Shown here piece by piece: positions 1,646 to 12,316 of a stretch of 12,347 bases of DNA. Under the pieces are notes generated by a model. The model worked only from the letters and a program-made list of their open reading frames with translations, had not been told where the DNA came from and searched no databases. Numbering within the stretch: position 1 is the stretch's first letter; every line of letters starts with the position of its first letter. Source of the stretch: a bacterium (GTDB lineage Bacteria > ARS69); the NCBI GenBank assembly GCA_025774865.1, contig JALGZO010000503.1, forward strand, positions 1 through 12,347. Direction: 5' to 3'. The translations under genes and the position numbers were made by a program.

Positions 1646-3331
1646 TTGGGAGTCTGGCGGGCTTCGATCGGGGTGGGGCTCGTGATCTGGGTCGCCGGCT
1701 GCGCGCGCGACCCCGGTCCGCTTCGAGATGCGGCCGGGGCACTCGCCGAGGGCCGAACGCAGGACGCCTACCGATCCGCCGTCGCCGCGGCCGCGGCGCT
1801 ACCGGAGTCGCCCGACGCGCACGTTCTGCTCGCCGAGGCGGCACTCCTCACGATGCGGACGACCGACGGCGTGGCCGCATCGGAGCGGGCCCTGGAGCTC
1901 GCGCCGGACGACCCCCGGGCGCACGTCGTTCGAGCGTTTCTCGACCAGGCGCGCTTTCGCAACGTGGCGGCGATCGCGGCTGCCCGCGAGGCCGTCCGGC
2001 TGGCTCCCGACGAGCCGCGCTACCGGATCGCGCTCGGGGAGCTCCTGTTCGGCGGCGGCATGGTGGGCACGCCCGACTACGACGGGGCCGCCGCGGCGTT
2101 CCGCGAAGCGCTCCGCCTCGAACCGGACGCCGCGCGAGCGCGTTTCGGACTGGCGAAGTCGCTGATCCTCGCCGGGGAGGACGAAGAGGGCGAGCGGGAG
2201 ATCGGGCGGTACCTCGAGCAGCGTCACGGCCATGGGGAGGCGTACTACTTGAGGGGTCTCGCGCGTCTCCGTCGGCGCGCGCTGGGGGAGGCCGTGGCCG
2301 ACTTCCGTGACGCGGCCGCGTACGCCCCGCACGAGTCCGCTCACCACTTCAACCTCCAGCGCGTGCTCCAGCTCTTGGGCCGCGAACAGGAAGCCAGCGA
2401 CGCGAGGAAGAGGTTTCAACACTTTCGCGGTCTGGAAAAGGGAGTCGCCGGCACGGCGGTGGCCTACCACTCCGACACGGGAAACGTGGGGGCCGCGCTC
2501 CAGTTGGCGAGGCTCTTGGCGGAGCAGGGCCGGTTTCGCGAGTGCACGATCCTGTTGGAGTCGCTTTGCCTCGATCACCCGAACCTTCTCGAGGCACATG
2601 CGCTCCTGGCCGAAGTGTGTGTCCCCTGGCACGAGATCTCCTCGGGCAGGGAGGCCGCGCTCCGAGTGATCGAAATGGCCCCGGGGAAAGCGCGAGGCTA
2701 CCTCGCCCTGGCTCGTCTCGAATCCGAAGCCGGAAACGCGGTCGCCGCGGTGAAGCCTGCGCAGACCGCGGCGAGTCTCGAGCCCGGCGATGTCGAAGTG
2801 CAGCTTCTCTTGGGTTCGATCCTGCTGGACGCTGGAAAGTTCGATGAGGCTCTGGCGTTGTTCGAACGCCTTCGCCGACAATTCCCCGAGAACCTCCGAG
2901 CGCGGGGGGGATTCGGGCAGGCTCTCGTCGGAGTGGGAAGGCACGAGCAGGGAGTGTCCGCGCTGACGGACGTGCTCCGAAGCCGCCCCCGACATATCGC
3001 CTGGTTGTACTATCGCGGTCTCGGACAGATCGGCCGAGGGAACCCCGGCCTCGCCGAAGGCGACCTTCGCAGCGTGGTCGCGATCGACCCGGCGCACGCG
3101 GAAGCTCGGGCGGGTCTCGTGCGGGTATTCCGGGAAACCGGGAGAGAGCGCGAGGCGCAGAAGTTGGAGGCGAAGCATCAGGAACGACTTGGGCTCGAGA
3201 CGGAGATCCGAGAGCTGCGTGAGCAGGGATCGCGTACCCATCACCTGGCCGACCTTCTCGAGAAGGCCGGTCGTCCCGCCGAGGCGGTCCGCGTGAGAGC
3301 GGACGCCGACGTGCCGAGCTTGCTCCCTTGA
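1646..3331 (+). CDS. TPR-repeat lipoprotein, 561 aa
   Basis: The TTG start gives a compact 19-residue lipoprotein signal (one Arg, a Ile/Gly/Val/Leu core, then 'WVAGC' with Cys19 as the lipid site). Starting at GTG 1547 instead would give 594 aa. After the signal, nearly the whole protein is about ten tetratricopeptide repeats, with repeated pairs such as 'A..ALELAPDDP', 'AREAVRLAPDEP', 'FREALRLEPDAA' and 'LGSILLDAGKFDEALALF'. TPR arrays are superhelical protein-binding scaffolds, and no catalytic motif is visible. The stop codon overlaps the start of the next gene (TTGA, 3328-3331), so translation is probably coupled to the CRTAC1-type protein. TPR proteins next to CRTAC1-type proteins are common in Planctomycetota and Acidobacteriota. 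I infer that this one binds its FG-GAP neighbour at the membrane. Confidence 0.88.
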   Translation: MGVWRASIGVGLVIWVAGCARDPGPLRDAAGALAEGRTQDAYRSAVAAAAALPESPDAHVLLAEAALLTMRTTDGVAASERALELAPDDPRAHVVRAFLDQARFRNVAAIAAAREAVRLAPDEPRYRIALGELLFGGGMVGTPDYDGAAAAFREALRLEPDAARARFGLAKSLILAGEDEEGEREIGRYLEQRHGHGEAYYLRGLARLRRRALGEAVADFRDAAAYAPHESAHHFNLQRVLQLLGREQEASDARKRFQHFRGLEKGVAGTAVAYHSDTGNVGAALQLARLLAEQGRFRECTILLESLCLDHPNLLEAHALLAEVCVPWHEISSGREAALRVIEMAPGKARGYLALARLESEAGNAVAAVKPAQTAASLEPGDVEVQLLLGSILLDAGKFDEALALFERLRRQFPENLRARGGFGQALVGVGRHEQGVSALTDVLRSRPRHIAWLYYRGLGQIGRGNPGLAEGDLRSVVAIDPAHAEARAGLVRVFRETGREREAQKLEAKHQERLGLETEIRELREQGSRTHHLADLLEKAGRPAEAVRVRADADVPSLLP

Positions 3332-4956
3332 AGAGGATCGTGACGTGGGGGCTCCTCGGAGCGGCGCTCGTATTCGGCCGCGGCGGCACGATCGCGGCCG
3401 AGGTCCCAGCACCACTCTACCGTGACATCACCGCGGAGTCCGGAATCGATTTCAGGCAGTCGAATGGCGCTACCGGGACGAAGCAATACATCGAGCTGAT
3501 GGGCTCGGGCGGGTGCCTCCTGGATTACGACGCGGACGGCCGCTTCGACCTCTACCTGGTAAACTCGGTCGGCGCGAATCAGTTGTACCGGAACCTCGGC
3601 GGTCTCCGCTTCGAGAATGTAACCGCCCGCGCCGGACTCGGGCACGAAGGGTACGGGATGGGAGCGTTCGCCGCCGACGTCGACAACGACGGTGACACGG
3701 ACATCTTCGTGACGAACTTCGGCCCCAACGCGCTCTACTTGAACGAGGGTGACGGGACGTTTCGCGAAATCGCCGCCCGCGCCGGCATCGACGACGCTCG
3801 CTGGGGAACCGGTGCCGCGTTCTTCGATGCGGACAGTGACGGCTGGCTCGATCTCTACCTCGTGAACTACGTTCAGATGGCCGTACCCGATACGAACGAG
3901 TGCTATGCCGAACAGGGTGCGATTCGCCTGTACTGTCCGCCGCGGCGCTATCCGCGGGCGAAGGACGTCTTCTATCGGAATCGTGGCGACGGTACGTTCG
4001 TCGACGCGACCGAGGTGTTCGGCGGCCGTGGGTTGGAGGGCCGGGGGCTCGGTGTGATCGCAGGCGATTTCGATCGGGATGGCCGCCCCGACGTCTACGT
4101 GGCGAACGACCTCGACCCGAACTTCCTCTTCCACAATCAAGGAGGCGGAACGTTCGAAGAGATCGGAATGCTGGCCGGCGCGAGCCACTCCGAGGACGGA
4201 CGGGAAGAGTCGGGGATGGGTCTCGCCGCGGGTGACTACGACAACGACGGGTGGATCGACCTCTTCGTATCCAACTTCGTCAACGAGACGAACACCCTCT
4301 ACCGTAACGAGGGTGGGCTCTTCCTCGACGCGTCCGCGACCTCGCGCGTCGGCCCGCAGAGCCTACCCTTCGTGAGTTGGGGAACCGAGTTTTTCGATTT
4401 CGACCTGGACGGGTGGAAGGATCTGTTCGTAGCGAACGGGCACACCGAGTCGGACGTCGAACGAATCGACCCCACGTCCACGTGGAAGCAGCCGGATTTC
4501 CTGTACCACAATCGCGGTGACGGAACCTTCGCCCAGATAACGGCCACCGTGGCCCCGAGCCTGGTCGAGCACCGCGCGGGACGCGGCGCCGTGTTCGGAG
4601 ACCTCGACGACGACGGCGACATCGACTTCGTCGTCGTCAATCAGAACGATCCGCTGCTCTTCCTGGAGAACGCGGGAGTCCCGGGCCACCACTGGATCGG
4701 GTTCCACCTGGAGGGCACCGAGTCGAACCGGGATGCGGTGGGCGCGCGCGTGGAGATCCACGCCGGCGACCTCGTCACCGTTCGAGAAGTCCGAGCCGGC
4801 TCCAGCTACCTCTCCAGCAACGATCCCCGCGTCCACTTCGGTCTGGGGGAGCGCGACACGGTCGACTCCGTCGACATCCGGTGGCCCTCCGGTCGGGAGC
4901 AGACGATTCACGGGCTTGCGGTCGATCGTTACCATCGAATCATCGAGGGGAAGTGA
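3328..4956 (+). CDS. Secreted CRTAC1-type FG-GAP/ASPIC-UnbV protein, 542 aa
   Basis: The start is TTG 3328, overlapping the TPR stop. There is no clear Shine-Dalgarno site, so re-initiation after the TPR gene is likely. A Sec signal peptide covers residues 1 to about 24 (Lys2-Arg3, a hydrophobic stretch, then 'TIAA'). Seven FG-GAP/VCBS calcium loops of the DxDxDGxxD type begin at Asp66, 117, 167, 247, 303, 357 and 425, consistent with a seven-bladed beta-propeller. Between blades 3 and 4 is the family insert 'ECYAEQGAIRLYCPPRRY' with Cys192 and Cys203, a possible disulfide. Residues about 453-538 form a complete ASPIC/UnbV domain ('VGARVEIHAG', 'REVRAGSSYLSSNDPRVHFG', 'VDIRWPSG'). The family is related to animal cartilage acidic protein 1; its bacterial role is unknown. 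The product is exported and probably binds calcium and other proteins or surface sugars. Confidence 0.92.
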   Translation: MKRIVTWGLLGAALVFGRGGTIAAEVPAPLYRDITAESGIDFRQSNGATGTKQYIELMGSGGCLLDYDADGRFDLYLVNSVGANQLYRNLGGLRFENVTARAGLGHEGYGMGAFAADVDNDGDTDIFVTNFGPNALYLNEGDGTFREIAARAGIDDARWGTGAAFFDADSDGWLDLYLVNYVQMAVPDTNECYAEQGAIRLYCPPRRYPRAKDVFYRNRGDGTFVDATEVFGGRGLEGRGLGVIAGDFDRDGRPDVYVANDLDPNFLFHNQGGGTFEEIGMLAGASHSEDGREESGMGLAAGDYDNDGWIDLFVSNFVNETNTLYRNEGGLFLDASATSRVGPQSLPFVSWGTEFFDFDLDGWKDLFVANGHTESDVERIDPTSTWKQPDFLYHNRGDGTFAQITATVAPSLVEHRAGRGAVFGDLDDDGDIDFVVVNQNDPLLFLENAGVPGHHWIGFHLEGTESNRDAVGARVEIHAGDLVTVREVRAGSSYLSSNDPRVHFGLGERDTVDSVDIRWPSGREQTIHGLAVDRYHRIIEGK

Positions 4957-6935
4957 TGCGACGACTCCCGGCGGCAGTCAGCACTCTGATACTGCTCGCG
5001 CTCGGCGCGGGTTGCGGCGGCGAGTCGGAGCCGGCGTCGGACGCCGGCGTCGAGGATGCCCATCACCACCACCCGGACCCCGTGACTCGCGCGCCGGATG
5101 CGGACGCGGTTCCGCACAGCGAGAAGCACGACGAGCTGCTGCAGATCGCCCGGCGTCTGCAGGCGAGCGACGAGACGTACTTCGGGAAAGCGATCATGCG
5201 TCAGCTCGAAGCGGCCGACACGACCGGCTTCTCCGCCGAGGAGAAGGCACAGTGGTTCCATGCTCGCGCGCACCAGGCTTTCAAGCTCGGCGGTCCGGAA
5301 GAAGCCGAAGAACTCTGGGAGAAGAGCTTCGAGGAGCGTCCGTCGGTCTGGACCAAGTATCTGATCGGTGTGACCCAACTGCGTATCGGCGAGCTGCAGA
5401 ACTGCATTCGGGGACACGACCCCGAAAGCTGCATATTTCCGCTGGCCGGCGGCGGCATTCATTCCGACGCCGGCGGCGCGGAGCGAGCCATCGCCACGCT
5501 CATGCTGACGCTGGACCGGGCGCCGCGTCCGATGCGTCCGCGCGTGCGCTGGTTCGTGAACCTCGCCGCGATGGCTCTGGATCGTCATCCGGGATTGCTC
5601 GAATCGCACGTGCTGATCGCGCCGGCGCGGTTCACGTCGGACTACGACATCGGTCGCTTCCCCGACGTCGCGATGAGTCTAGGGATCGCGCCGATGAACC
5701 TGGCGGGCGGCACCATTCTCGAGGACTTCGACGGCGACGGGTTCCTGGACATCGTGACGTCCACCTCCGACATCTACGGTCAGCTCCGCTACTACAAGAA
5801 CGAGGGCGACGGCACGTTCACGGAGCGTACGGAAGAGGCGGGGCTTCTCGGCCAGATCGGCGGCTTGAATCTGGTCCATGCGGACTACGACGGTGACGGA
5901 GACCGGGACGTGCTCGTCCTTCGGGGGGGCTGGCAAGGGACGTACGGACGCATTCCGAACTCGCTGCTCCGAAATCGCGGCGACGGGCGGTTCACCGACG
6001 TCACGCGGCGGGCCGGCATCGGCGAGAACTCCTACCCGTGTCAGGTGGCGGCGTTCGCGGATTACGATCTGGACGGCGATCTCGATCTCTTCTTCGCGAA
6101 CGAGACCCCGCCCCCGGAGTCGGGACTGAAATACCCTTGTGAGCTCTTTCGCAACGAGGGAGACGGCACGTTCACCGACGTCGCAGCCGAGGCGGGGGTC
6201 GAGAGCTTCAAGCTCGCGAAGGGTGCCGCGTGGGGCGACTTCGACGGAGATCGTGATCCGGATCTCTTTGTATCAAACCAGTACGACATCAACCGCTTCT
6301 ACCGGAACAACGGAGACGGCACGTTCACGAACATCGCCGACGAGCTCGGGGTGGACGAGCCGCGGCTGAGTTTTCCGACCTGGTTCTGGGACTACGACAA
6401 CGACGGTCGGCTGGATCTGTTCGTGGCGGGGTACGGCGGCGACGTGAACGAGGTCGCGAAGAACTACCTCCGGCCGGAGGGCAAGTACGCGCTGAACGCG
6501 CTGTACCACAATGAAGGCGGTGCATTCCGGGATCTGGCGCGGGAGTCCGGGCTGACGCGTCAGGCGCTGGTGATGGGAGCGAACTTCGGGGATCTCGACA
6601 ACGACGGCTGGCTCGACTTCTATCTGGGAACCGGCACGCCCGACTTCGATGCGCTCATGCCGAATCTGATGTACCGGAGCGACGGGAAGGGTGGCTTTCA
6701 GGACGTCACGACCTCGGGCGGATTCGGAAACCTCCAGAAGGGCCACGGGATCGCCTTCGGAGACGTCGACAACGACGGGGACGAGGACGTGTACCTGCAG
6801 AGCGGCGGGATCTACCCGTCTGGCCGAAGACGGACGCGACGCAAACCCTCGAGGGGCTCGAGCTGGACGCCTTCTATCGGGTGGTCGAGTTCGAGAAGAA
6901 GCCGGAGCGGCTGGAACGGAAGACGATCGCCCTGA
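4956..6935 (+). CDS. Lipoprotein with helical N-domain and FG-GAP propeller; C-terminus disrupted
   Basis: ATG 4956 overlaps the previous stop (TGATG), with GAGG (4945-4948) seven bases upstream. The signal ends in 'LGAGC' with Cys20 as the likely lipid site. A linker with four histidines (36-39) follows, then an alpha-helical TPR-like region (about 55-215). The FG-GAP region (about 245-621) has seven DxDxDGxxD-type loops starting at Asp257, 310, 369, 428, 479, 546 and 603; the fourth has Arg in place of Gly (DFDGDRDPD). Up to Pro621 the protein is typical of CRTAC1-type lipoproteins. From residue 622 it becomes 38 Arg/Ser/Gly-rich residues that resemble out-of-frame translation, and the expected ASPIC/UnbV domain is missing. 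Its last 43 residues survive in another frame at 6818-6949. The open frame as written is 659 aa. It may be a truncated protein, a decaying gene or an assembly error. Confidence 0.85.
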   Translation: MRRLPAAVSTLILLALGAGCGGESEPASDAGVEDAHHHHPDPVTRAPDADAVPHSEKHDELLQIARRLQASDETYFGKAIMRQLEAADTTGFSAEEKAQWFHARAHQAFKLGGPEEAEELWEKSFEERPSVWTKYLIGVTQLRIGELQNCIRGHDPESCIFPLAGGGIHSDAGGAERAIATLMLTLDRAPRPMRPRVRWFVNLAAMALDRHPGLLESHVLIAPARFTSDYDIGRFPDVAMSLGIAPMNLAGGTILEDFDGDGFLDIVTSTSDIYGQLRYYKNEGDGTFTERTEEAGLLGQIGGLNLVHADYDGDGDRDVLVLRGGWQGTYGRIPNSLLRNRGDGRFTDVTRRAGIGENSYPCQVAAFADYDLDGDLDLFFANETPPPESGLKYPCELFRNEGDGTFTDVAAEAGVESFKLAKGAAWGDFDGDRDPDLFVSNQYDINRFYRNNGDGTFTNIADELGVDEPRLSFPTWFWDYDNDGRLDLFVAGYGGDVNEVAKNYLRPEGKYALNALYHNEGGAFRDLARESGLTRQALVMGANFGDLDNDGWLDFYLGTGTPDFDALMPNLMYRSDGKGGFQDVTTSGGFGNLQKGHGIAFGDVDNDGDEDVYLQSGGIYPSGRRRTRRKPSRGSSWTPSIGWSSSRRSRSGWNGRRSP

Positions 6936-6949
6936 AGCCGGGAAGCTGA
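6818..6949 (+). pseudogene. Out-of-frame remnant of an ASPIC/UnbV C-terminus
   Basis: Read in frame from 6818, this stretch gives 'VWPKTDATQTLEGLELDAF' and then 'YRVVEFEKKPERLERK', followed by 'TIALKPGS' and a stop at 6947-6949. This is the usual ending of ASPIC/UnbV domains. Compare 'IRWPSGREQTIHGLAVDRY' at the end of the upstream paralogue. It follows 'GGIYP' of the propeller directly but is shifted by one base, so the roughly 80-90 residues normally between those points are missing. The loss would be of length 3n+1. The tail has no start or ribosome site of its own. Confidence 0.75.
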
Positions 6950-8113
6950 CTACTCCTCGGTGAGCTCGAAGGCGCCGAGGTCCGGCGCGTCTCCTCGAAA
7001 GGAGCCTTCGGGCGCGGAGTAGGTCCACCGCCCCGGCCGCTCGAAGTAAGCGGCTCCGGCGTCCACGCACGGGCTCTCCGTCGTCAGCCGGAGCTCCCGG
7101 GTCAGTCGGGGGTCGGCTCGAAACACCGCGTCTTCCAGGTTGCTCCGCTCGTCGTCTTTGCGGTTCTTCCAGAAGAGGACGTGAGAGACCACGGATTGAC
7201 CGTCCACCTTCTTGAGCGCCGTCCGTCGGGTCGACGAGAACACGTTGTTCAAGACCAGCATGTTGTCGCCGCCGGTGACTCCGTATTCGTTGCCCACGAA
7301 CGTATTGTGAATGAGCTCGACCCGCTCGGGAATGCTGGCCGCCTGGTAGTTCTCCTTCGTCTCGCCGTTCGCCATGCAGCCCACGGCCGCCATCGCATTG
7401 CGCTCGAAGACGTTCCTCTCGATCCGGATCTCGCGATCCGACCGGTCTGGATAGTCGATCAGCTGGATCCCGTCTTCGTCGTTGCGGGAGATGACGTTGC
7501 CGCGGATGACGACCGACAGGAGATCTCCCGAATACTCATGCAGGCGGATCTCGATGCCGTCGTCCTCGTTGTTCGTGATGATGTTGTCCTCGATCAGAAC
7601 GGCGCAGGCGCCGTCGAGGTCGATCCCGTCGTCGCGGTTCCTCTCGAACACGTTGTTCCGGCAGACACCGCCGCCTCCCTCGTAGTCGAGCGCGTCCTTG
7701 TTTCTGGTGAAGCGGTTGTTCTCGACGTGGATCCGCGCGTGGCAGGAGATGCCGTCGTCGCCGTTGCGGATCGTGAGCCCGACGATGCGGGTCTCGGGCC
7801 CCACGCTCTCGTCGACGAGGACGACGAACGCGGACTTCCCCCGTCGCTCGAGCACCGTCTTCTCGACGTCCGAGGAATCGCCGCTCTCGAGGAAGCGGGA
7901 TGCGAGCGTGATCGTCTTGTGGCGGATCTCGATCGCTTCGCGGTAGACGCCCGGAGCCACGAGAACGACGTCGCCGTCCCGAGCGGCGTCCACGCCCGCC
8001 TGGACGGTGGGTCGGTCCGCCGGGACGTGGATCGTCGCGGCCGGCGCGGGTAGCGCCCCCGGACCGGCCAGGAGCAGGCAGATGAGGCGGAAGAAGAGAG
8101 ATCGGGCGAGCAT
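6950..8113 (-). CDS. Secreted right-handed beta-helix protein, 387 aa
   Basis: The start is ATG 8113, with AGGAG (8118-8122) four bases upstream. The open frame continues to 8290 but is Arg/Gly-rich there and has no signal. A Sec signal peptide covers residues 1 to about 26 ('FFRLICLLLAGPGALPAPAA'). Residues 27-60 ('TIHVPADRPTVQAGVDAA', 'VAPGVYRE') are the classic opening of NosD/pectate-lyase-like parallel beta-helices. Residues about 95-320 carry helix rungs such as 'ENNRFTRN', 'RNNVFERN', 'EDNIITNN', 'RGNVISRN' and 'ERNVFERN', many followed by an acidic 'DDGI' turn (119-122, 161-164, 184-187, 213-216). The end, 'SPCVDAGA...DAPDLGAFE', matches the terminal motif of choice-of-anchor-Q and related polymorphic beta-helix proteins. 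No pectate-lyase active site can be assigned, so polysaccharide binding or cleavage remains a guess. It converges on the FG-GAP unit with no gap. Confidence 0.86.
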   Translation of the reverse strand: MLARSLFFRLICLLLAGPGALPAPAATIHVPADRPTVQAGVDAARDGDVVLVAPGVYREAIEIRHKTITLASRFLESGDSSDVEKTVLERRGKSAFVVLVDESVGPETRIVGLTIRNGDDGISCHARIHVENNRFTRNKDALDYEGGGGVCRNNVFERNRDDGIDLDGACAVLIEDNIITNNEDDGIEIRLHEYSGDLLSVVIRGNVISRNDEDGIQLIDYPDRSDREIRIERNVFERNAMAAVGCMANGETKENYQAASIPERVELIHNTFVGNEYGVTGGDNMLVLNNVFSSTRRTALKKVDGQSVVSHVLFWKNRKDDERSNLEDAVFRADPRLTRELRLTTESPCVDAGAAYFERPGRWTYSAPEGSFRGDAPDLGAFELTEE

Positions 8114-8138
8114 GTGGCTCCTCTCGGCAGGGCAGTCC

Positions 8139-8167
8139 ACTCTAGCAGCGGCGCACATTTTTTTCGA
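8139..8167 (-). promoter_or_regulatory. Candidate promoter for the beta-helix gene
   Basis: On the minus strand, TCGAAA (8162-8167) and TAGAGT (8139-8144) are separated by 17 bases, and each matches the sigma-70 consensus at four of six positions. Transcription would begin near 8132, giving a leader of about 20 bases that contains the AGGAG site. The -35 element lies in a 7-T run that is unusual for this GC-rich window. Weak evidence, from base matching only. Confidence 0.3.
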
Positions 8168-8192
8168 CTCGGGCCCGCCGGCACCGTATCTT
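8164..8192 (+). promoter_or_regulatory. Candidate promoter for the M3 peptidase gene
   Basis: TCGACT (8164-8169) and TATCTT (8187-8192) have a 17-base spacer, each matching four of six consensus positions. Transcription would start near 8199, about 84 bases before the GTG. Its -35 overlaps that of the divergent candidate promoter, so the two would compete for polymerase. Weak evidence. Confidence 0.3.
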
Positions 8193-8270
8193 GTACGCAA
8201 CCTCGAGCCGGCTTCCGGGCCCTTCCTTCCCCGCCCGGATCCACGAACCGAGCGATCCGAACTTCCTGTG

Positions 8271-8276
8271 AGGGAG
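8271..8276 (+). promoter_or_regulatory. Shine-Dalgarno AGGGAG deciding the GTG start of the M3 peptidase
   Basis: AGGGAG lies six bases before GTG 8283. The same frame is open back to 8007 on the opposite strand of the beta-helix gene, but starting at 8283 places a signal peptide at the N-terminus and gives the normal family length. Confidence 0.7.
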
Positions 8277-8282
8277 ACTAGC

Positions 8283-10355
8283 GTGCACATTCGACTGAAG
8301 CGAGTCTACGGGGCGTTCGCCCTGATGCTACTGGGCGCCGCGAGCGCCGGCGCCACGGACTTCGACGAGAACACGGTCTCGGCCGCCCTGGAGCGGGCGG
8401 ATGCCACCGTTGAGCGGATCATCGCGGTCCCGGCGGGTGATCGCACCTTCGAGAACACGCTCGGCGCTCTCGACGACATGGTCGCCCGGCTCGACCTCGA
8501 CACGAACATGTTCACGTTCATGGCGTACGTCTCCCCGGATCCGCGGCTTCGCGAGATCGCCGAGCAGGGCGACGAGCGGCTCCGGGAGTGGTTCATCGAT
8601 GTCAGCCAGAACGAGGAGCTCTACGCGGCCGTGCGGGAGTACGCGGACGCGAAGCCGGAGCTCGAGGGAGAGAGGGCGCGCTACCTGAAGGAGACGCTGC
8701 GCGATTACCGCCGAGCCGGAATGGAGCTTCCCAAGGAAGAGCGTGAGAAGCTCGCCGAGATCAAGAAGGAGATCTCTCGCCTCGGTCTCGACTTCGACCG
8801 GAACATTCGTGAATACGAACAGCACGTTCCTCTGACGGAGGAGGAGCTCGTCGGCACGAGTGAGGACTTTCGAAACAGCCTCACGAAGTCCGGTGACATG
8901 TATCTCGTCGGTCTGTCCTATCCGGAGTTCCTGCCGATCGACGACTACTGCGAGAACGAAACGACGCGGCGGAAGATGTGGCTCGCTTACAAGCGCCGAG
9001 GCGGCAAGAAGAACATCGACGTGCTGGAGCAGCTGGTGGCGAAGCGGGCGGAGGCGGCCGAGGTCCTCGGCTATGAGTCGCCAGCGGCTTACGAGGTCGA
9101 GGTCCGGATGTCGAAGATGCCGTCGAACGTGCTCGAGTTCTACGAGAAGCTCCGCCCCCTCGTGAGGCAGAAGGCGGAGATGGATTATGCACAGTTCGTC
9201 GAGGCCAAGCGCAAGCACACCGGTGACCCGGAGGCTCAGCTTCGGCCCTGGGACTTCAGCTTCTACAAGAACCGGCTTCTCCAGGACGAGTACGCAGTGG
9301 ACTCGGAGAAGGTGCAGGAGTACTTCCCTCTTCACCTCGTGACCGAGGGCCTCTTCTCGATTACGCAGTCGCTCTACGGGCTCGAGTACGAGGAGATCAC
9401 GGACCAGGCCCGAGAAGAGGGGTTGCTCTGGCACGAGGACGCGAAGCTCTTCGCGGTGCGCGACAAGGCGTCCGGCGAGACGATCGGCGAGTTCTTCATC
9501 GATCTGCATCCGCGCGAGAACAAGTACGGTCACGCGGCCCACTGGGGGTTGAGCCAGAACAAGGTCTGGATGGACGGCAAGCGTACGAAGCCGCAGTCGG
9601 CGCTCGTCTGCAACTTCACGAAGCCGACCGCGGACAAGCCGTCACTCCTGACGCACGATGAGGTCGAAACGTACTTTCACGAGTTCGGCCATTGCCTCCA
9701 CAACCTGCTGAGTGCGGCCGACATGTGGTCGTTTTCGGGAGCCCGGGTCGAGCGTGACTTCGTGGAGGCGCCATCGCAGATGTTCGAGAACTGGATCTGG
9801 GACGCCGACGTCCTGAGCACCTTCGCCGCGCACTACGAGACCGGCGAACCTCTGCCGCGCTCGCTTCTGGACGGGATGATCGCGGCCCGGAATCTCGGCT
9901 CGGGTTTGTCGGCCGAACGGCAGTTCTTTTACGGGCTGTACGACTTCACGCTGCACTCGGATCAGGAGGGTGATCTCGACACGACCGCGCTCGGCCACGA
10001 GCTCTGGGGCGCGCTTGGCTCGGGCGTCGAGCTCTACGAAGCCGTGCCGGAGACGTACTTCCAGTCAGCCTTCGGGCACCTGACCGGATACCAGGCCGGC
10101 TACTACGGATACCAGTGGTCGCTCGTGTACGCGTGCGACATGTTCCAGCGGTTCAAGGAGCTCGGCATGCTGGATCCCGAAGCGGGGCAGTTCTATCGGG
10201 AGAAGATTCTTTCGCAGGGCGGCAGCCAGGACGGCATGGACCTCGTGAAAGGGTATCTCGGACGGGATCCGGACTACGGTGCGTACCTGAAGCACCTCGG
10301 GATCGAAGATGCGGTGGGCGGCGCGACCGGCTCGTCGTCGTCCAGCGGGTACTGA
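8283..10355 (+). CDS. Exported M3-family zinc oligopeptidase, 690 aa
   Basis: The start is GTG 8283 with a strong Shine-Dalgarno site. Residues 1 to about 23 form a Sec signal peptide ('GAFALMLLGAASAGA'), so the enzyme is probably periplasmic. The body is full length for thimet oligopeptidase/oligopeptidase A/Dcp relatives (about 680-700 aa). The zinc site is complete: His466-Glu467-Phe-Gly-His470, with the third ligand Glu495 in 'FVEAPSQMFENW', the same 29-residue spacing as in thimet oligopeptidase. The substrate-binding block near the C-terminus is present as 'HLTGYQAGYYGYQWS' (His599 to about Ser613). The family cleaves short peptides, usually under about 20 residues, in a deep channel. 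Here it would degrade peptides outside the cytoplasm. The C-terminus ends in a Gly/Ser tail ('GSSSSSGY') beyond the catalytic domain. It appears monocistronic, with the beta-helix gene divergent and csp about 250 bp downstream. Confidence 0.94.
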   Translation: MHIRLKRVYGAFALMLLGAASAGATDFDENTVSAALERADATVERIIAVPAGDRTFENTLGALDDMVARLDLDTNMFTFMAYVSPDPRLREIAEQGDERLREWFIDVSQNEELYAAVREYADAKPELEGERARYLKETLRDYRRAGMELPKEEREKLAEIKKEISRLGLDFDRNIREYEQHVPLTEEELVGTSEDFRNSLTKSGDMYLVGLSYPEFLPIDDYCENETTRRKMWLAYKRRGGKKNIDVLEQLVAKRAEAAEVLGYESPAAYEVEVRMSKMPSNVLEFYEKLRPLVRQKAEMDYAQFVEAKRKHTGDPEAQLRPWDFSFYKNRLLQDEYAVDSEKVQEYFPLHLVTEGLFSITQSLYGLEYEEITDQAREEGLLWHEDAKLFAVRDKASGETIGEFFIDLHPRENKYGHAAHWGLSQNKVWMDGKRTKPQSALVCNFTKPTADKPSLLTHDEVETYFHEFGHCLHNLLSAADMWSFSGARVERDFVEAPSQMFENWIWDADVLSTFAAHYETGEPLPRSLLDGMIAARNLGSGLSAERQFFYGLYDFTLHSDQEGDLDTTALGHELWGALGSGVELYEAVPETYFQSAFGHLTGYQAGYYGYQWSLVYACDMFQRFKELGMLDPEAGQFYREKILSQGGSQDGMDLVKGYLGRDPDYGAYLKHLGIEDAVGGATGSSSSSGY

Positions 10356-10891: not shown

Positions 10892-12178
10892 CTAGTCCCC
10901 CAAGCCGAACACCGGGGTCAAACCGCTCGGCACCGACTCCGGTACGGTGAGCAGGAACGAATCGAGCTCGGTTCCCGGATCCGTCAGCGCCTCCAGGAAC
11001 GACACGAGGGCTCGGATCTCATCCTCCGTCAGGCCGAGCGGCTCGCGCAAATCCTCTTCGAGCATCTCGTCAGTGACGGCCGCGTGGCGAGGTTGTGCCC
11101 CGTCATTGCAGAACCGAATGACCTCGTCCAGCGTGTGGAAGACGCCGTCGTGCATGTAGGGGGGAGTGAGCGCGACGTTGCGGAGCGTCGGGACGCGAAA
11201 CGCATACCGGTCTTGCGAGTCACCAGTGTGCTCTTCCCGACCGGTGTCATCGCCGGGAATCACGTCCTTACCTTCGCCTTCCTGGGGAATGCCCTTCACG
11301 ATGAAGTCGAAGTTCGTGAACATCGGACCACTGTGACATCCGGCGCATCGGGCCTTCGTGAAGAAGAGCTCGAGGCCCTCCTTCTGGAGCGCCGTGAGCG
11401 CATCGTCCTCCCCGTTCACGTATCTATCGTACGGCGAATTCCGCGTCACGAGCTCGCGCTCATAGGCGGCGATGGCCCTCGTGTAGGTCGAGGAATCGAT
11501 GGCGCTGCCCCCGGGGGAGGTGAGCTCGGGGAACGCGTTGGCGAAGAGCGCTTCGTACGCCGGGATTTCTTGCAGGCGAGCCAGGACGCTGTCGAGAGCG
11601 GCGGCCGCCGCCACGTCCTCCGCGCCCGGATAGGCGTCGCCGCGCATCTCCACGCGCGAGGTGATCGGTTTCGTGGATTGAACCTCGAGGCCCGAGACGC
11701 GGCCATCCCAGAACTGGAGGCCGTCGTGGGAAGGCACACCGGATTCGTCGAGATTGAACGCCGTGTTGAAGACCGTCGGCGAGTTGCGGGGCTCGAGCTG
11801 AATGGGCAGCTGCGTCACCGCCGAGACCGAAACGACGCGCTCCGGTCCGAGACCCCGGCCGCTCGCGCCGGCGCCGAACTGGCGACGATCGGCGAATGCG
11901 AAGTCGGGGTGGTGGCAGGTCCCGCAGGCAACGTCCTTCTCGCCGGCGAGGATCGGGTCGAAGAAGAGAAGCCTCCCGAGCGCGATCCTCTCCTGGCGGG
12001 GAGGGTTGTCGGGTGGGTAGGGGATCGGTCCCAGAGTCTCCAGAGCGAAGCGGGTGCGAGGGTCCTCGTCGTCGACGGGGCCCGTGGAATCCGTGCTGTC
12101 GCAGCCGGAGACGGACAACGAGATCAAGAGCAGGAAGGCCGGTGCGAGCCTCGCACCGGGACGGGTCGAATGAGACAT
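10892..12178 (-). CDS. Di-heme cytochrome c peroxidase / MauG-family lipoprotein, 428 aa
   Basis: The start is ATG 12178, with AAGGA (12185-12189) six bases upstream. ATG 12184 is in frame but directly abuts that site. The signal has a Leu/Ala/Ile core and ends in 'SVSGC', giving lipid Cys26 and an acidic Ser/Thr/Asp linker. Two CxxCH heme sites are present: Cys85-GT-Cys88-His89 in the N-terminal domain ('VACGTCHHPDFAF') and Cys278-AG-Cys281-His282 in the C-terminal domain ('RCAGCHSGPMFTN'). The hallmark 'RVPTLRNVALTPPYMHDG' (328-345) supplies Met342, the likely distal ligand of the C-terminal heme. Family members reduce hydrogen peroxide with electrons from cytochrome c or cupredoxin, or oxidise protein substrates (MauG type). 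Met342 favours a peroxidase over MauG, whose ligand is Tyr. It would be anchored at a membrane, facing the periplasm. No partner gene is visible. Confidence 0.93.
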   Translation of the reverse strand: MSHSTRPGARLAPAFLLLISLSVSGCDSTDSTGPVDDEDPRTRFALETLGPIPYPPDNPPRQERIALGRLLFFDPILAGEKDVACGTCHHPDFAFADRRQFGAGASGRGLGPERVVSVSAVTQLPIQLEPRNSPTVFNTAFNLDESGVPSHDGLQFWDGRVSGLEVQSTKPITSRVEMRGDAYPGAEDVAAAAALDSVLARLQEIPAYEALFANAFPELTSPGGSAIDSSTYTRAIAAYERELVTRNSPYDRYVNGEDDALTALQKEGLELFFTKARCAGCHSGPMFTNFDFIVKGIPQEGEGKDVIPGDDTGREEHTGDSQDRYAFRVPTLRNVALTPPYMHDGVFHTLDEVIRFCNDGAQPRHAAVTDEMLEEDLREPLGLTEDEIRALVSFLEALTDPGTELDSFLLTVPESVPSGLTPVFGLGD

Positions 12179-12184
12179 GCTCAT

Positions 12185-12190
12185 TCCTTC
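12185..12190 (-). promoter_or_regulatory. Shine-Dalgarno GAAGGA deciding the peroxidase start
   Basis: On the minus strand, AAGGA ends directly before ATG 12184 but six bases before ATG 12178. The spacing therefore favours the second Met of 'MSMSHS' as the real start. Confidence 0.6.
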
Positions 12191-12281
12191 TCGACTGGGG
12201 GTTTGTCTGAACCGAGCCGCCTGGCGAGGTGCGGAGCGAGTCAGGAGGGCTCGCCTCCAGGGTCTCGTCGTCGGCCGGCCC

Positions 12282-12316
12282 ATGATATCTGAATACACGA
12301 CTGAAAAGTCGTAAAT
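12282..12316 (-). promoter_or_regulatory. AT-rich upstream region of the peroxidase with a short palindrome
   Basis: This stretch is much richer in A/T than the rest of the window and holds -10-like elements on the minus strand (TATCAT at 12282-12287, TATTCA at 12290-12295). I could not find a -35 with good spacing. A perfect palindrome, ACGACT (12297-12302) and AGTCGT (12307-12312) around GAAA, overlaps the likely -35 zone and could be an operator. Beyond it, to 12347, I see nothing recognisable. Confidence 0.3.

Follow-up and report, generated by a model that had tools for sequence, protein, structure and literature searches.

An apparent out-of-frame loss of about 247 nucleotides in a CRTAC1-type FG-GAP lipoprotein gene of a draft bacterial genome

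The third FG-GAP gene of the window (the whole stretch of DNA analysed, 12,347 bases, which is the entire contig G000:C507) belongs to a known family, is ordinary except for being broken in this draft genome, and does not represent a new system. Judged by sequence comparison, the gene is disrupted relative to its 79 aligned homologues through an out-of-frame loss of ~247 nt. The initial annotation of the locus was right in nearly every detail. It had left the cause open among a deletion, a pseudogene and an assembly error, and evidence from the rest of the genome now tips the balance towards the last of these, short of proof.

The gene starts with the ATG at 4953, and its open frame ends with the TGA at 6933-6935. 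The part read in the normal frame (4953-6815, plus strand) encodes a putative signal peptide, a predicted helical N-terminal region and a beta-propeller up to the residues GGIY (6815). Its identification as a CRTAC1-type FG-GAP lipoprotein is based on six stretches of FG-GAP repeats (PF13517, E 1.9e-48), on codon-position G+C and on 68% identity across the propeller to L039, identical to L119, the counterpart in Gemmatimonadota bacterium DHS20C21 and the closest relative among those searched (none of the same genus). The N-terminus, MRRLPAAVSTLILLALGAGC, fits by eye a lipoprotein signal peptide with a lipobox cysteine. As originally described, the propeller reads normally in frame 0 as far as DVYLQSGGIYP (CCG at 6816-6818) and then gives way to 38 Arg/Ser/Gly-rich residues (6819-6935, plus strand) that lack similarity to the family. 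The junction itself, CCGTC (6816-6820, plus strand), occupies the site of 80-89 residues in the homologues. A displaced frame begins directly behind it and reads WPKTDATQTLEGLELDAFYRVVEFEKKPERLERKTIALKPGS (beginning WPKTDATQ) from 6821 to its own stop, the TGA at 6947-6949 (plus strand), which directly adjoins the stop of a convergent gene at 6950.

The claim that the displaced frame is an authentic domain ending was borne out by pairwise similarity and by codon-position G+C. When the ASPIC/UnbV domain of the intact relative was searched against the whole draft, it matched G000:C507:6815-6934 with 48% identity (E 1e-6), and 19 of 40 residues of the displaced tail are identical to the relative. 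This tail has a BLOSUM62 score of 105; none of 5,000 shuffles exceeded 53, and the frame-0 tail reached 13. Ahead of the join the three codon positions have G+C fractions of 0.68/0.44/0.83, and those of the displaced frame are 0.64/0.40/0.90, while the frame-0 tail, at 0.38/0.92/0.67, has the composition of an out-of-frame reading. A PF07593 search, which the initial annotation had proposed for the alternative-frame tail, gave no match in either the open frame of the gene or the 43-residue displaced tail; this cannot refute the assignment, as the tail is presumably too small a remnant of the 68-position model. Placement of the tail in the ASPIC/UnbV family is thus by pairwise similarity only.

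In L039/L119, 84 residues (252 nt) separate GGIY from the WP motif, against 5 nt in the window. The net loss of ~247 nt equals 3 × 82 + 1 and agrees with the earlier estimate of 240-270 bp (3n + 1), going beyond a mere frameshift. The same spacing was measured in the 79 aligned homologues, drawn from many phyla, and amounts to 80 residues in 2 of them, 84 in 51, 85 in 24, and 87 and 89 in one each; in the upstream paralogue of the window it is 81, where about 80 had been stated. None of the 79 ends naturally at the point where the window gene does. L086 (~5098), from a Bacteroidetes draft, was considered as a second truncated homologue and rejected, since the gene is simply frameshifted in this same region and its whole ASPIC domain is intact in the neighbouring frame. 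A split gene in the genome G003 (contigs C41 and C21) was likewise rejected as a deletion, being a contig break within one gene.

A complete in-frame PF07593 domain is absent from the third gene, whereas the intact relative matches positions 1-67 of the model. The structure of the relative was modelled with confidence (mean pLDDT 88, pTM 0.90), and in this model residues 553-636, the ones missing from the window gene, form the two final strands of the propeller and the greater part of the C-terminal beta-sandwich. The original view that most of the ASPIC/UnbV domain has been removed therefore stands, with the refinement that the end of the propeller is lost as well, and on the basis of this model the truncated protein as drawn is unlikely to fold properly. 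The relative combines a propeller with PF07593 in the manner of CRTAC1-type proteins (PF13517 plus PF07593); its best match among solved structures is murine CRTAC1 (PDB 9etn; 554 columns, Foldseek E 8e-30), which the family profile also matches (E 3.4e-24). The window gene has the propeller repeats in common with these proteins but not the final propeller strands or most of the ASPIC domain, and it differs from them, together with its close homologues, in an additional N-terminal helical region predicted by the model of the relative. Literature searches on ASPIC/UnbV together with CRTAC1, on DHS20C21 and on gene truncation in draft assemblies found nothing.

An intact paralogue lies upstream (3328-4956, plus strand) with a complete ASPIC/UnbV domain at ~4735-4935 (PF07593 model positions 1-67, E 5.7e-25). 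Downstream, good Pfam matches identify a beta-helix/NosD-like protein (6950-8290, minus strand), the convergent gene whose stop adjoins the broken one, an M3 peptidase (8007-10355, plus strand) and a di-haem cytochrome c peroxidase (10892-12298, minus strand). The draft as a whole (G000) comprises 4.72 Mb in 785 contigs, is 92.65% complete and 8.3% contaminated, and holds many FG-GAP/ASPIC paralogues (18 ASPIC places and 147 FG-GAP repeat matches). One of these, a CRTAC1-type gene on contig C741 (L146), has an in-frame stop (KDL*SFFWRQ) in an otherwise normal FG-GAP gene.

We consider a recurrent defect of the assembly to be the probable cause of the loss, and favour it over a real recent deletion. 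The living organism would then carry an ordinary, whole CRTAC1-type lipoprotein gene, of which ~247 bp would have been lost during assembly of the draft, two correctly assembled flanks having been fused across a short unassembled stretch; the same defect would recur at other places in the draft. The loss, its frame and the occurrence of similar losses in other genes are directly visible in the draft, and we infer from them that the joining took place in the assembly rather than in the cell. The preference derives from the similar breaks found in several unrelated genes, including a probably essential one.

These breaks were found by reciprocal protein searches between two genomes of one family: 470 kb of G000, on contigs chosen mainly as named by earlier searches and not randomly, and 1.6 Mb of the cleaner G003. 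Among 175 gene matches in G000, covering 201 kb of alignable sequence, there were three clean out-of-frame deletions of ~34, 82 and 89 nt, and the reverse comparison for G003 (239 matches, 239 kb) yielded none; each side had one ambiguous case in a poorly conserved region. At equal rates the chance of all three falling in G000 (201 vs 239 kb) is ~0.10, which is not significant alone, and the count is therefore suggestive of a draft-wide defect. A homology-free scan for frame switches by codon usage was discarded, as it missed the known junction and made weak calls, 4 in G000 and 7 in G003.

The first of the three deletions (~34 nt) affects a farnesyl diphosphate (FPP) synthase on contig C461 (L181, ~8052, minus strand), the loss of which is expected to be lethal or nearly so. 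Its counterpart in G003 reaches 316 bits as an FPP synthase, above the cut-off of 275; only one other prenyl synthase turned up in the draft, and it falls below that value with 139. The C461 gene is thus the sole FPP synthase family match above the cut-off level found in the draft, and a real break would eliminate a probably essential enzyme, which makes this gene the strongest single point in favour of an assembly defect. The second deletion (~82 nt) lies in an NHL-like protein on contig C258 (L187, ~2314, minus strand). The third (~89 nt) removes a CxxCH haem site from a multiheme cytochrome on contig C480 (L241, ~1143), whose downstream part, after the join, shows ~74% identity to G003; the lost piece was not found elsewhere in the draft. 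Two further abrupt joins came to light through the ASPIC search, a biased route, and were kept outside the deletion count. On contig C699 (L188, ~4220) the N-terminal part of a sulfatase (positions 6-96 of the 301-position model) is fused out of frame to an ASPIC/UnbV domain, and on contig C761 (L176, 14159-14479, minus strand) an orphan ASPIC-type domain end stands directly behind an unrelated gene that contains a helicase C-terminal domain. The break in the window resembles all five in being abrupt within coding sequence with undecayed flanks, but the clean deletions on C461, C258 and C480 are smaller (~34-89 nt against ~247 nt), and C699 and C761 fuse different genes.

The abrupt joins on C699 and C761 and the near-absence of decay in the displaced tail, together with the 785 contigs and 8.3% contamination of the draft, were counted in favour of an assembly defect. 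Counted against it were the bias in how these two joins were found, the non-significant difference of three deletions versus none, and the intactness of the four long housekeeping genes tested (rpoB, rpoC, ileS and alaS), although four intact genes are to be expected at a rate of ~1.5 breaks per 100 kb. The missing segment was not found on other contigs of the draft, and no exact long repeat liable to collapse in assembly can be demonstrated for it; both points also count against an assembly defect. Contig C765 was rejected as its source, since it carries the ASPIC domain of a different paralogue, cut by the contig end. The locus has neither a second copy nor a strain variant in the draft, and the left flank has no exact match among viral contigs.

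A possible but less probable explanation is that the sampled strain itself recently lost this segment, out of frame, leaving a pseudogene or a misfolded truncated lipoprotein. The 12.3-kb contig has the junction in its interior, away from its edges, the four housekeeping genes are intact, and the many FG-GAP/ASPIC paralogues of the genome, one of them intact and adjoining the broken gene, could make such a loss tolerable. Against it stand the similarly affected unrelated genes of the draft, among them the only FPP synthase match, and the state of the displaced tail, which retains its family sequence and its stop with no visible decay, so that little time can have passed since the loss. The same state would follow from a very recent deletion, so that the undecayed tail is equally compatible with an artefact and a very recent event. 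It is improbable that the population truly has numerous out-of-frame deletions of recent origin in its surface and metabolic genes, that of the lipoprotein included, as a lineage quickly losing functions.

We regard it as very unlikely that selection maintains the shortened product as a working lipoprotein made up of the propeller alone plus a new basic tail. The frame does stay open for 38 codons beyond the junction, but no aligned homologue out of the 79 stops short here (the apparent exception, L086, being a frameshift), the confident model of the relative shows that the loss covers the two final propeller strands and most strands of the sandwich, and the new tail has the codon-position G+C expected of an out-of-frame reading. 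Recoding that connects the two frames, by a programmed frameshift or otherwise, can practically be dismissed: the frames come within 5 nt of each other, but ~82 residues present in every aligned homologue could not be recovered by any frameshift.

Should the deletion be real, the gene would count as an ordinary pseudogene in a known family. With an assembly defect as the favoured cause, the meaning of the finding is mostly cautionary. Automatic annotation would call this locus a lipoprotein with just a propeller and a basic tail, and would also call the FPP synthase of the draft and a cytochrome pseudogenes. Short deletions that leave neither a run of N nor a contig end can evade completeness and contamination scores, and comparison with a cleaner member of the same family reveals them.
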